Source: Candidatus Cloacimonadota bacterium (GTDB lineage Bacteria; Cloacimonadota; Cloacimonadia; Cloacimonadales; TCS61). Taken from it: a stretch of 34,817 bases of DNA. The notes beneath the pieces were generated by a model that saw nothing but the letters and a program-made list of their open reading frames with translations, made no database searches and was not told the DNA's origin. The translations under genes and the position numbers were made by a program. The DNA lies in NCBI GenBank assembly GCA_021734245.1, contig JAIPJH010000021.1, positions 1 to 34,817 of the forward strand, written 5' to 3'. Positions 28,795-33,935 of the stretch are shown here, in pieces. How positions within the stretch are numbered: position 1 is the stretch's first letter; every line of letters begins with the position of its first letter.

Positions 28795-28860
28795 CTCTTT
28801 CCTTACAACTTTTTTCCGATTCAAAGATGAGTGTTTTTCATGTCAATTTTTCTTTTGATT

Positions 28861-29140
28861 TTAACAGCAGAGCGAATAAGCCACGAAGTAAAAGCCGCTA
28901 AGAAAATATCATAATCAGCGTCATTCTGAAGAGTCCTACGAAGGTTGTTCTTGCGTCTTGGTAAAACTACGCCGGCACAAGTTGGAAGAATCTCTTTGCT
29001 GGTACGAGAAGAAAAGCTGTGAGAACTTTCACGAGATACTTCGTAAGCAAAGCTATGAGTAACCTCAGCATGACGGCTTTTTTCGTCATTCTGACGTAGC
29101 TTGCACGCTGCTCTTGGGAAGAATCTCACTTAACCGCAGA
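28861..29140. repeat. Decayed GTCATTCTGA...GAAGAATCTC repeat cluster
   Basis: The 420-base gap 28795-29215 holds no supportable gene. It contains GTCATTCTGA at 28919 and 29086, GAAGAATCTC at 28985 and 29118, and an inverted pair ATGACG (29070-29075) / CGTCAT (29084-29089). These are the ends of a dispersed repeat related in design (GTCAT..CTGA end) to the elements at 33948-34794, in several degraded, inverted copies. Confidence 0.55.
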
Positions 29141-29215: not shown

Positions 29216-29247
29216 TTGACATAAAAACAAAAAAGGCAATTATTTGC
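29216..29247 (+). promoter_or_regulatory. Likely promoter of the nuclease gene pair
   Basis: TTGACA at 29216-29221, 19 bases, then TATTTGC at 29241-29247, 41 bases before the ATG at 29289. Same boxes and spacing as the tRNA promoter at 10580-10611. Confidence 0.5.
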
Positions 29248-29288
29248 GATATAAAAAATATACACGTAAATTTATTAAGGAGGAGAAA

Positions 29289-29624
29289 ATGGCTCAAACT
29301 GACTTAACTTATCTTGAATCTGATTTACGAAGTATTATAGAAAGTATTATGAAACTTGGTGCTAATAATAATAATTATGATTTATTAGAAATTATAATTT
29401 CTGATATTGACGTACTAAATTCAACTTTAACTGATCAAAACACAAAATCAGATTTTGATTATTTACTTGAAGACATTTCTTTTGACCATCTAGAAAAAAT
29501 TATAAAGAAAATAAAACATACAAATTTAAAAAAAACCGATAATGATTTCAATAATAATTTGCTAGATGCTTTTAAAATAGTTTATTTGTTAATTGGAAAA
29601 ATATTTTTTTCAGAATCAAAATAA
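29289..29624 (+). CDS. Small acidic helical protein, function unknown
   Basis: 111 residues starting at 29289 behind a strong SD (AAGGAGG, 5 bases before ATG); the in-frame upstream start region is the promoter/leader. Composition is rich in D, N, L, I and K, predicted mostly helical (TYLESDLRSIIESIMKLG, YDLLEIIISDIDVLNSTL, YLLEDISFDHLEKIIKKI) with a hydrophobic C-terminal helix (LLDAFKIVYLLIGKIFF). No family recognised. Codon use is more AT-biased than the neighbours. It is 56 bases upstream of the nuclease-like gene on the same strand, so the two may act as a unit, for example a partner or inhibitor; that is inference. Confidence 0.6.
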   Translation: MAQTDLTYLESDLRSIIESIMKLGANNNNYDLLEIIISDIDVLNSTLTDQNTKSDFDYLLEDISFDHLEKIIKKIKHTNLKKTDNDFNNNLLDAFKIVYLLIGKIFFSESK

Positions 29625-29680
29625 AATTATGTTTTCTCATTATAATTTTTTCATGCTGATTTGGCTTCAAAGAGTTAACA

Positions 29681-31216
29681 ATGACTAATCATAAACGACC
29701 TTTAATACAATACGACATTAAATATTATAAATATCCTACAAGCATCTGTAGAGGTTATTATGCTAAATATCCGATTGAAAACGGATTACAATATTATCAG
29801 ATTGAACAACGAAAAGCATGGTTACACCACATTGAGGATTTATCAAAAACAAAATTCCACAAAATTTTAGTAGAATTATTCGATATAAATTCATATTTTA
29901 AAGTTTTAAATAAAGATATTGATGAACATGGAATCTTTATAGAAGGTTTTTTTCTAAAAAGAATACATCTCGATGTTTTTACAAAGTATTTTAATACTGA
30001 TATTGAATTTGACGAATTTCATAACCTTTTGAATGAAGCTTGGGGTTATTATGTCCACATAAAAAAAAATGCAGACATGATTAGAATAATAAAAGATCAT
30101 GTTTATGAACAAAATTATTTAATGATGATTAACAAAGTCAATTATTTAAACAGAATTATTAAATGGTACAATAAATATAAACATGAAAGAATTTGCAAGT
30201 TTAGCGGAAAATCTTTTCGAATAATAGATTACCCAAATTGGTTATATCTAGGTGCAAATGGATTCAAGAACTGTTGCTTTTTTGGTGATGTATTGGAATC
30301 ACCAACCAAAAAAGAACTCGAGAAATTGATACCCAAATTTGTTAAGTTGTGTGGTTTTATACCACCTACAGATTTTAATATTTTAGATTATAAATTCACA
30401 TCAAGAATTCCAAATAATAATTTAAATGATGTATTTGAATTGTATTTAAAAATGGGTGGTTTAGATCACATAAAACAGCACTACGATACATGGTTTTCTG
30501 CAATGGTTTTAACTGGCGCAACTCCAAATTTTGTAAATGTAGGAAAGAGGGGGATAAGATGTGTTTCAGAGGATGGACATGAATGTAAATCCCTTGAAGA
30601 AAAGCAAATAGATGATTGGTTATATAGAAATGACATTATTCATGAAAAAGAACCATTTTACCCAATTGATAATGATTTTAATCCAAGAAGAAAAAAAAGA
30701 GCAGATTGGATAGTCAATAACACTTATATAGAATATTTAGGTTTAATAGGAAATAAAAAATATGATAAAAAAACTGAAGAAAAAATTTCTTTAGCAAGGA
30801 AATTAAATTTTCAGTTAATCTTATTATCTCCCAATGATTTAGAAAATTTACAAAGTAAACTAAAGTCTTGTATGAAAAATAAAATAAAATCTGATAATTT
30901 CTGCGAGTTAACAATTTGTGATCAAACTATAATTAGAAATCCGTCAAATCAACAATTAGAAAGAGAAATTAAAAATTTAAGATCTAGAACTAGTGATTAT
31001 GCGATATTATCATTTAAGGATTTTGATTTTATACAAACTTTAAGAGATCCAATCCAAGGTTTTATTCTTGAATTTCAAGATGGTAGCTATTTAAAACATT
31101 ATCAAGCAAAAAATAAAAACATTTCTCTTAAAGAAGTTGTAAATTCTTTCATTTCTTTTCGTGACAAGGATGATTCTTGGAAAAAAAAATTCGATTTTGA
31201 GAGAATTGATGTTTAA
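29681..31216 (+). CDS. PD-(D/E)XK nuclease-like protein with a large novel N-terminal region
   Basis: 511 residues. Residues 292-390 show a PD-(D/E)XK-type core: an opening helix glutamate (E306/E307 in SLEEKQIDDWL), HEKEPFYP, D342 in RRKKRADWIV, E351 in YIEYLGLIG, and lysines 364-368 in YDKKTEEK before a helix, then LNFQLILLSP. The IEY(F/L)G...Y...K layout resembles nuclease domains attached to some superfamily-1 helicases. Residues 1-290 are unassigned and include C172 (ICKFSGKSF), C198-C199 and C224. About 405-511 is another unassigned region. No helicase or methylase is adjacent. Strongly AT-biased codon use and flanking repeats suggest an accessory, perhaps transferred, locus. No clear SD precedes the ATG. 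Confidence 0.65.
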   Translation: MTNHKRPLIQYDIKYYKYPTSICRGYYAKYPIENGLQYYQIEQRKAWLHHIEDLSKTKFHKILVELFDINSYFKVLNKDIDEHGIFIEGFFLKRIHLDVFTKYFNTDIEFDEFHNLLNEAWGYYVHIKKNADMIRIIKDHVYEQNYLMMINKVNYLNRIIKWYNKYKHERICKFSGKSFRIIDYPNWLYLGANGFKNCCFFGDVLESPTKKELEKLIPKFVKLCGFIPPTDFNILDYKFTSRIPNNNLNDVFELYLKMGGLDHIKQHYDTWFSAMVLTGATPNFVNVGKRGIRCVSEDGHECKSLEEKQIDDWLYRNDIIHEKEPFYPIDNDFNPRRKKRADWIVNNTYIEYLGLIGNKKYDKKTEEKISLARKLNFQLILLSPNDLENLQSKLKSCMKNKIKSDNFCELTICDQTIIRNPSNQQLEREIKNLRSRTSDYAILSFKDFDFIQTLRDPIQGFILEFQDGSYLKHYQAKNKNISLKEVVNSFISFRDKDDSWKKKFDFERIDV

Positions 31217-31242: not shown

Positions 31243-32589
31243 ATGAAATCTAACACATACGATAAATTCTTAGGCTTCACCGCATTTGGTGAAAGTCATA
31301 GTCCTGCAATTGGACTGGTAATTGAAGATGTGAAACCAGGAATCGAGTTTCCGCAAAAAGTAATCCAGAAAGCTCTGGATGAACGTAAACCGGGAAAAGG
31401 CAAATTCCTTACAACCCGCCAGGAAGCAGATAAAATCGAAATTCTATCTGGAGTATTGAATGGAATAACAACAGGTATGCCAATCTGCCTGGTGGTTTAC
31501 AACAAAAATGCAAAACCAGAAGATTATGAGCATTTAAAAAATGTTTTTCGCCCCGGTCATGCTGATTATTCACTTTTCCAGAAATTCAAAATTTACGATT
31601 ATCGAGGTGGTGGAAGAGCTTCCGGCAGAGAAACTATTTCTCGAGTTGCCGCTGCTGGAATGGTTAATGACATTTTAAAGGATATTCAGATAAATATATA
31701 TCCTGTTCAAATTGGTAAAATTACTGCTTCAAAAATCGGAAAAAATCAAAATGAATTACTTTGGCCAGATTCAGACTCTTTCGAAAAACTTCAATTATAT
31801 TTAGAAGAAATAAGGAAATCCGGAAATTCTACAGGAGGTATCGTCGAAGTAAAGATTCAGAATTTACCCTCAGGTCTGGGAGATCCGGTTTTTGAAAAGC
31901 TGGATGCCAACCTGGCAAAAGCCATTTTATCTATTGGAGGAGTTAAAGGCATCGAATTTGGTGATGGATTTGAACTGGCAAAACTGACTGGAAGTGAAGC
32001 AAACGATCAATTGGAGGAAAGCGGATTTCTATCCAATCATTCCGGTGGAATTCTGGGTGGCATCTCTACTGGACAAACCTTGAAACTCCGATTCGTTGTA
32101 AAACCGACTTCTTCCATAAATATTGAGCAGAAGACGATTACTCACGATGGCAAAAACACTAAAATCACAGTTGGTGGCAGACACGATGTCTGCATCATTC
32201 CTCGCTTAATTCCGGTAGCAAAAGCAATGATTAAACTTGTTTTAGCAGATGCGATCAGTTATCAGAAATTAGTAAAAAATGAAAAACAGGATTTATCGGA
32301 TTACCGTGAAGCAATCGACAAGATCGATGAAGATATTCTGATCGCTATAAAACGAAGAATGGAGATCAGTAAATTGATCGGAAAATTCAAAAAATATAGT
32401 CAATTGAAAATTGAAAATCTTCAGCGTGAAAAAGAGCTACTGAGATCACTACAGGAAAAAGCTGGTAAGTTGGGTATTTCTGAAGATTTGATTGAGTCTA
32501 TATGGAAAAATATAATTGCAGAAAGCAAAAATATGCAGGATACAATTTACACAGTCAGGAGTGACTGTGATACAAGTAAAAAATGCTGA
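31243..32589 (+). CDS. aroC: Chorismate synthase fused to AroQ-type chorismate mutase
   Basis: 448 residues. Residues 1-345 are chorismate synthase (5-enolpyruvylshikimate-3-phosphate to chorismate, needing reduced FMN): FTAFGESHSPAIG near the start, FRPGHADYSLFQKFKIYDYRGGGRASGRETISRVAAAG, and GGRHDVCIIPRLIPVAKAM. Residues about 351-435 are an AroQ-class chorismate mutase helix bundle (YREAIDKIDEDILIAIKRRMEISKLIG, then LQREKELL), with the arginines, lysine and R-E pair of the active site at expected spacing. The fusion would pass chorismate directly to prephenate. The start has no good SD and begins 26 bases after the nuclease gene, so it may be read from that transcript. It overlaps the next gene by 7 bases. 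Confidence 0.93.
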   Translation: MKSNTYDKFLGFTAFGESHSPAIGLVIEDVKPGIEFPQKVIQKALDERKPGKGKFLTTRQEADKIEILSGVLNGITTGMPICLVVYNKNAKPEDYEHLKNVFRPGHADYSLFQKFKIYDYRGGGRASGRETISRVAAAGMVNDILKDIQINIYPVQIGKITASKIGKNQNELLWPDSDSFEKLQLYLEEIRKSGNSTGGIVEVKIQNLPSGLGDPVFEKLDANLAKAILSIGGVKGIEFGDGFELAKLTGSEANDQLEESGFLSNHSGGILGGISTGQTLKLRFVVKPTSSINIEQKTITHDGKNTKITVGGRHDVCIIPRLIPVAKAMIKLVLADAISYQKLVKNEKQDLSDYREAIDKIDEDILIAIKRRMEISKLIGKFKKYSQLKIENLQREKELLRSLQEKAGKLGISEDLIESIWKNIIAESKNMQDTIYTVRSDCDTSKKC

Positions 32590-33935
32590 TTCTATCCATT
32601 CCTTTTTTTAGCTCAGAATTTGTAACAAAACATTCACAAAACCGTAAATTTCCGTGGAAAGAATATCGCCTTGATTTCAATGAACATTTGAACGATTTCC
32701 CACAGGAAATACTCGATGAAACAAGTATCGTTACGATCCGAGATATTTCTGAAGGTGGAAAAAATGATTTTCCTTTAAAAGACAAAGTTGAATTTTACAA
32801 AAAAGCAATTCAGCAATCAAACTGCCTGGTAGATTTTGAAGTACAGCAATATGAAAAAAAACTAATCAATCCAGAAAATCTCATTCTTTCCTATCACGAT
32901 TTTACTAATGATTTCGATTTTGAAAAACTGAAAAAAGTCATTGATAGCATGAATAATTCTGATGCGCGGTTTATCAAAATTGCTGTTGGTGTGGATTCAT
33001 ACACCAGCTTGATAAGAATTTACAATCTGATAGCGAAATGCAAGAAACCTGTTATCTTTGCCGGCTTGGGAAACAGGGGAAAAATCAGCCGGCTTCTGCA
33101 CAAACATCTGGGAGCAAAAGGTACATTTATTGGTTTGGAAAACAATCAAACAGCTTTGGGACAGATACTTGATTCTGATGTTGATCTTTATAATTTGCAT
33201 AAGATTACACCTAACTCCAAAATCGGTGGAATTATTGGTGGAAAGCAAATCGAACATTCTTTGGGATTGAAATTTTATAACGACTATTTTCAAAAGAATA
33301 AATTGGATGCTTATTATTTCCCATTTGAAACAGATGGAATAAATGATTTTCTCAGATGGCTCGAAAATTGTCGTTTTTTTAATAAATTTTTTGGTTTTTC
33401 TGTTACGATGCCTTTCAAAAAAAGTATCATTCGCCAGCCAATAAACCTTTATATTCCAAATCGAGATTTTTACCTGAATACCGATCAGGAAGCTTTCTAC
33501 AAAATTTTAGATATGGATTTTGTTACGATTGCTGATAAAGTTTTAATTTTTGGTTCGGGAGCGATGGCAAGAACAGCCCTTAATAGTTTGAACGGTTTCA
33601 GCAATATCTTTATTTCCGGCCGCAATGTTTCCGAAGGTCACATTTTAGCGGAAAAATTTAATTGTGATTTCCTGAAGATTGAAGAAGCAAAAAAGCTGTC
33701 ATTTGATCTGCTGATCAACTGCGCTCCAATTGGGATGAAAGATGAAGACTTCAGCAAAGAAACTGGGATTAGTAAGTTCAGGAAAGTGATCGATCTTCCC
33801 TATCAAATTGAAGATACAAAATTAATAGAATTCTGTAAGAAAAAAGAAATTCCCTGCGTTGACGGAAAACAGTTTTGGAAGTGGCAGGCGGAAAGACAAC
33901 TGCAAGAATTTGCGAAAGAAATAAAAAATCAATAA
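32583..33935 (+). CDS. Bifunctional 3-dehydroquinate dehydratase / shikimate dehydrogenase
   Basis: 450 residues. Residues 1-205 are type I 3-dehydroquinate dehydratase: catalytic H105 in LSYHDF and Schiff-base K132 in RFIKIAVGV, closing with ALGQI near the family's APGQ. Residues about 214-450 are shikimate dehydrogenase: IGGKQIEHSLGL (218-229), VTMPFK with catalytic K279, NTD with D301, and the nucleotide-binding LIFGSGAMARTA (321-332). The usual SLSP substrate motif reads SLGL, so one of two carboxylate-binding serines is missing. The NCAPIGM and DLPY segments are present but drifted. The ATG lies inside the end of aroC (ATGCTGA overlap), so the two fusion enzymes of one pathway are translationally coupled. 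Confidence 0.9.
   Translation: MLILSIPFFSSEFVTKHSQNRKFPWKEYRLDFNEHLNDFPQEILDETSIVTIRDISEGGKNDFPLKDKVEFYKKAIQQSNCLVDFEVQQYEKKLINPENLILSYHDFTNDFDFEKLKKVIDSMNNSDARFIKIAVGVDSYTSLIRIYNLIAKCKKPVIFAGLGNRGKISRLLHKHLGAKGTFIGLENNQTALGQILDSDVDLYNLHKITPNSKIGGIIGGKQIEHSLGLKFYNDYFQKNKLDAYYFPFETDGINDFLRWLENCRFFNKFFGFSVTMPFKKSIIRQPINLYIPNRDFYLNTDQEAFYKILDMDFVTIADKVLIFGSGAMARTALNSLNGFSNIFISGRNVSEGHILAEKFNCDFLKIEEAKKLSFDLLINCAPIGMKDEDFSKETGISKFRKVIDLPYQIEDTKLIEFCKKKEIPCVDGKQFWKWQAERQLQEFAKEIKNQ

Follow-up and report, generated by a model that had tools for sequence, protein, structure and literature searches.

The window, by which we mean the whole stretch of 34,817 nucleotides that was analyzed, was found to carry a gene for a 511-residue protein that sequence comparison and structure modelling support as a nuclease with a restriction-endonuclease-like core. 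Judged from its sequence context, the gene is probably accessory and acquired between two housekeeping genes, folP and aroC. We favour, with moderate confidence, an acquired single-gene, restriction-like defence endonuclease. The small gene ahead of it appears, from sequence comparison, to be either an orphan that travels as a passenger or a private partner of the nuclease that evolves fast. The locus contains the following features:

28855..29135 (no strand assigned): copy of a dispersed intergenic repeat, one of 43 matches in its own genome (this copy counted)
29216..29243 (+): promoter-like site TTGACA-16-AATTAT (10 of 12 matches), possibly a displaced aroC promoter
29277..29283 (+): Shine-Dalgarno sequence AAGGAGG of the small gene, 5 nt 5' of the ATG
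29289..29624 (+): small gene for a 111-aa acidic, probably helical orphan protein (open reading frame and protein analysis)
29681..31216 (+): nuclease gene for the 511-aa protein (open reading frame)

The two genes lie head to tail on the plus strand, 56 bp apart, and aroC starts 26 nt 3' of the nuclease gene stop codon. An earlier note had described both genes from the letters alone, and its positions and lengths were confirmed, both frames being open, as was the strong Shine-Dalgarno sequence. The AT-biased codons that it had pointed out were also recovered: GC is 21.3% in the small gene and 26.0% in the nuclease gene compared to 35.4% for the window, and GC3 is 10.8 and 18.2%, respectively, compared to a range of 22-40% for 16 further genes of the window. 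The promoter-like boxes are present, but such sites were no commoner in the window than in shuffled sequences (14 observed, 16.6 expected). The upstream "repeat debris" turned out to be the dispersed repeat copy listed above, whose matches are spread over many contigs. Neither terminators nor a repeat boundary were found around the cassette.

The nuclease core and the parts around it

Five parts were distinguished in the 511-aa protein:

29681..30184 (+): N-terminal helical region, residues 1-168 (model; alignable to the Paludibacter relative from residue 74)
30194..30286 (+): degenerate zinc ribbon, residues 172-202 (alignment)
30452..30532 (+): module ahead of the core, residues 258-284, at the position where the relatives have the motif FGSWxxALxxAG, which resembles HNH_repeat
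30533..30865 (+): Vsr/I-Bth0305I-like PD-(D/E)XK nuclease core, residues 285-395 (profile matches, model and alignment)
30908..31207 (+): C-terminal domain, residues 410-509, also present in a same-genus protein that is probably secreted

Family scans of the full protein with Pfam and NCBIfam gave no match, and a sequence search of solved structures gave nothing, its profile version returning one chance match (E 0.45). The core was matched by PADLOC PDC-S69 (residues 293-398, E 2.8e-13) and by PHROG 22655 (residues 263-403, E 6e-13). An AlphaFold2 model built on a 12-row alignment had a pLDDT of about 90 over residues ~305 to 395 and shows an alpha-beta-beta-beta-alpha-beta core (E285-288, E291-295, H305-316, E343-345, E348-352, H359-375, and E378-382). 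The top VIA-align match of this core was the catalytic domain of I-Bth0305I (Z 10.1, 89 of 97 residues aligned, rmsd 2.4), followed by a mitoribosomal protein (Z 8.7), TnsA (8.1 and 8.0), and then more nucleases and mitoribosomal proteins; families missing from the VIA-align list are not thereby excluded. Foldseek alone found no match in the PDB at E up to 0.001, and against predicted viral proteins it gave nine matches, some of them named homing endonuclease or endonuclease. The restriction-endonuclease fold proposed in the earlier note is thus supported by structure prediction, the highest-ranked VIA-align rows including nucleases of both restriction and homing type.

E307, D342, E351, and K368 were invariant in all 12 aligned members of the nuclease family, and so were D298-G299-H300-x-C302 and D311-D312. 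Of the core residues named previously, D342, E351, and K368 therefore stand and position 364 is K or R, but E306 is variable and the true invariant glutamate is E307. The usual place of the (D/E)XK lysine holds L353 in the window protein, and from the alignment we propose that K368 stands in for the motif lysine.

The region N-terminal to the core had been regarded as unassigned. This holds for the fold, as residues 1-159 are predicted to be helical at a pLDDT below 50, but from residue 74 on the region is common to the Paludibacter relative. The relatives carry a zinc ribbon ahead of the core, and in the 12-row alignment the ribbon of the window protein was found to lack two of the four cysteines: C172, C198, and C199 are retained, the second Cys is S175 and the last is G202. 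The first CxxC is intact in 11 of the 12 rows, the window protein being the sole broken one (C172, S175). HNH_repeat (PF18780) was matched by 5 of the 12 aligned members at E up to 0.1, but not by the window protein, which gave no Pfam match. The N-terminal regions vary among groups; when a profile of the window protein and its Paludibacter relative was compared with eight other members, only the start of the ribbon aligned.

Residues 410-507 were 30% identical (pair E 2e-7) to the end of a 253-aa protein from genome G001 of the same genus (L002:1504-2265, minus strand). The G001 protein has a signal-like N-terminus and ends in the C-terminal domain of the window nuclease; it was rejected as a nuclease relative since the match is confined to this domain. 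Among 124 genomes of the phylum, the domain was found in the own genome and in the G001 protein only, and plasmid records held no match to it. It may resemble an immunity-protein fold.

Relatives and their gene neighbourhoods

The closest relative found (L011) is a 386-aa protein from a Paludibacter MAG, which aligns to residues 74-394 with 35% identity (E 3e-63) and has an intact zinc ribbon. A search of genome contigs with the core alignment gave 15 loci, from the Paludibacter MAG, two Chloroflexi MAGs, a Methanophagales archaeon, and actinobacteria. By tblastn, the core was found in Geobacillus virus E3 (2 of 50,697 phage records), while 72,556 plasmid records yielded 6 with the core, every one actinobacterial. 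Searches with the core profile found members in 2 of the 124 genomes from the phylum to which the window belongs (own genome counted), in 3 of 395 from that of L011, and in 9 of 400 from that of L012, the latter two counts each including the starting genome. The nuclease family is therefore rare and patchy in distribution. Among 97 related genomes there was no full-length relative. No relative came out when the whole 511-aa protein was used in the search for related loci, and viral contigs (IMG/VR) held no relative. A match in genome G091 overlapped other frames, by eye yebC- and ruvC-like, and was set aside as chance.

The same core was also seen behind other N-termini. L055, L056, and L057, from the phylum of L012, encode proteins of about 300 aa with two repeats before the core that look by eye like winged helices. 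In the window's class, L058:1600-2394 (minus strand, genome G107) encodes a 264-aa protein with the same core behind an N-terminus that is EVE-like by eye, without Pfam support. An EVE assignment of the L010 N-terminus was dropped, since it was made by eye only and Pfam found nothing.

We considered 28 non-phage relative loci (L004, L005, L007, L008, L011-L025, and L050-L058). In 12 of these at least one scanned neighbour belonged to a defence or restriction family, a count to be read in light of neighbours hand-picked by eye and without a background rate. The neighbours were a type I-like methylase (L004), RmrA (L007), HEPN (L012), AbiH and a DpnII-MboI REase (L016), Avs3a (L023), HsdR and HsdS (L050), HsdS and PDC-S26 (L051), directly adjoining Septu genes together with a type IIG enzyme (L056), a PbeA/type IV-like helicase (L057), type III-like restriction genes (L058), and FRG (L019 and L054). 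FRG is linked to defence. A further 10 loci were scanned without a convincing defence match (L005, L008, L011, L014, L018, L020, L022, L024, L052, and L053) and 6 lay outside the neighbour scan (L013, L015, L017, L021, L025, and L055). Two candidate neighbours were rejected. The gene beside L011, which by eye looks SIR2-like from its motifs, matched Pfam SIR2_2 below cut-off (E 0.0061), gave nothing in PADLOC and matched no solved structure; the PADLOC C3a186 match of a desaturase-like gene beside L053 was discounted.

Because the neighbours were picked by eye and have no background rate, the neighbourhoods support, rather than prove, a role in defence. As to residence in defence islands, which had been suggested as a check, several relatives adjoin defence or restriction genes; no defence gene was seen in the immediate surroundings of the window locus itself (27-34.8 kb read), where housekeeping genes flank both sides.

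Probable insertion between folP and aroC

folP (minus strand) and aroC (plus strand) were found adjacent without the nuclease pair in G002 (705 bp apart), in G010 (444 bp), and in G011 (2.3 kb, with other genes between). As the pair is missing from the gap in these three relatives and is AT-rich, the locus was probably acquired. This is in agreement with the accessory status claimed earlier, as is the lack of a full-length relative in the 97 related genomes.

TTGACA was present 45-60 bp 5' of aroC in 7 of the 13 relatives examined (6 of 9 and 1 of 4), a count that leaves out the own genome and the partial matches L076 and L077. In the window, the 120 bp preceding aroC lack it, and it occurs 73 bp ahead of the small gene; of the 3470 120-mers of the window, 69 contain it. 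This is suggestive, at the level of sequence, of the cassette having gone in behind the aroC promoter. The old aroC promoter would then probably lie upstream of the cassette, which may therefore be read together with the shikimate genes.

Other differences were observed at the same gap. In G002, of the same genus, L080:3090-3335 is a partial aroC copy, comprising the first ~40 codons and upstream sequence, 376 bp before the intact aroC, and represents a tandem duplication. In G011 the gap (L082:2132-3966) holds genes that by eye look like ExbB, ExbD, and TonB, so that the folP-aroC gap carries differing genes across genomes. Downstream of the cassette, at 31243-33935, we presume by eye an aroC with a chorismate-mutase-like C-terminal extension and a next gene that looks like an aroD-aroE fusion.

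Restriction, homing and other explanations

We rank defence by restriction first, at somewhat better than even probability, and homing second, as clearly less probable. In a restriction-like defence nuclease the N-terminal modules would read or dock on DNA, and the core, with a metal-bound water and E307/D342/E351/K368, would cut foreign DNA of phages or plasmids, by which the protein would protect the cell in the manner of restriction. The cassette between folP and aroC may be transcribed with the shikimate genes from the old aroC promoter. Domains of this kind are known in conflict systems: Vsr-type REase domains are embedded in conflict-system proteins such as MTES_1575 (PMC3710099). The domain of the MTES_1575 type has another setting than that of the window protein, as it spans about 180 aa and is part of giant helicase proteins. 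The PADLOC candidate defence protein PDC-S69 resembles the window protein in the nuclease third only (profile positions 180-281 of 289); positions 1-179 are unmatched in the window protein, which at 511 aa has other N- and C-terminal parts. Our literature search found no paper on PDC-S69. Against a defence nuclease stand the immediate surroundings of the window gene (27-34.8 kb), with no defence gene seen, the motif lysine being off its usual place (L353), the failure of Foldseek alone to match the PDB, and the phage relative, gp35 of Geobacillus virus E3, whose five HNH_repeats fit homing better.

Alternatively, the gene may be a free-standing, homing-endonuclease-like selfish gene that cuts an empty site of the folP-aroC type and is copied in by repair. 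We regard this as unlikely, although several observations point to it. The top solved-structure match is the catalytic domain of a homing endonuclease, HNH_repeat is matched by gp35 and by 5 of the 12 aligned members, and the window gene sits between housekeeping genes, as does its relative L053. gp35 is 37.7% identical over residues 291-398; its N-terminal part, made of the five HNH_repeats, is unlike that of the window protein. I-Bth0305I has a similar fold at 14% identity to the window core, and the window protein adds the zinc-ribbon remnant and the C-terminal domain; the likeness is one of fold. EDxHD enzymes are described in PMC3943268 as multi-domain, with a restriction-enzyme-like metal mechanism, and as a rule their nuclease is tethered to an extended DNA-binding part built of several modules. 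What counts against homing is that the relatives occur at many unrelated places, several adjoining defence genes, that no conserved insertion site was seen among them, and that viral contigs held no relative. TnsA of Tn7, also alike in core fold (Z 8.1), is 11% identical over the aligned part, and no transposition genes were recognised beside the window nuclease (27-34.8 kb read).

The earlier note had seen in the pair a possible defence or toxin-like unit, in which the small protein modulates the nuclease. In such a unit the small acidic protein would restrain the nuclease as a DNA mimic or inhibitor. We now find this improbable. The genes are adjacent on the same strand, 56 bp apart and of similarly low GC, and the small gene has its strong Shine-Dalgarno sequence and an acidic product (pI 4.6, 19 D+E and 12 K+R), which is predicted to be helical at a pLDDT of 47, too low for use. 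However, when 57 fetched loci were searched by tblastn with the small protein, the self match (L060) was the only one, the next having E 8.4, so that the small gene lies beside none of the fetched nuclease relatives, which have other neighbours. Within this sample, this is the outcome that the note had named as refuting the unit. No relative of it was found in the 97 related genomes, the 72,556 plasmid records, the 50,697 phage records or, in a scan for close relatives only, the IMG/VR contigs. Weak family-scan matches (best E 0.0013, far below the cut-off of that family) were attributed to chance. Since the small protein has no relatives where searched, the pair is not a conserved unit within this sample, and no toxin-like activity was indicated.

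A decaying, non-functional former nuclease is still less probable: two of the four zinc-ribbon cysteines are lost and the HNH_repeat-like module is undetectable by Pfam, but the frame of 511 codons is intact and all invariant core residues are retained. Least probable of all, in our estimation, is a self-restrained version of the restriction-like nuclease, a single-locus defence on the shikimate operon promoter with the C-terminal domain and the private acidic protein as two brakes and a zinc ribbon that decayed since DNA reading had moved elsewhere.

Altogether, the window protein belongs to a rare and patchy architecture of zinc ribbon, homing-type module and Vsr-like nuclease that extends across several bacterial phyla and one archaeon. 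For the window protein this architecture is not modelled by Pfam or NCBIfam, and PADLOC covers the nuclease third only. If the favoured restriction-like nuclease does restrict phage DNA, it would add a compact single-gene defence; if homing were true, it would represent a chromosomal homing-like nuclease outside introns.
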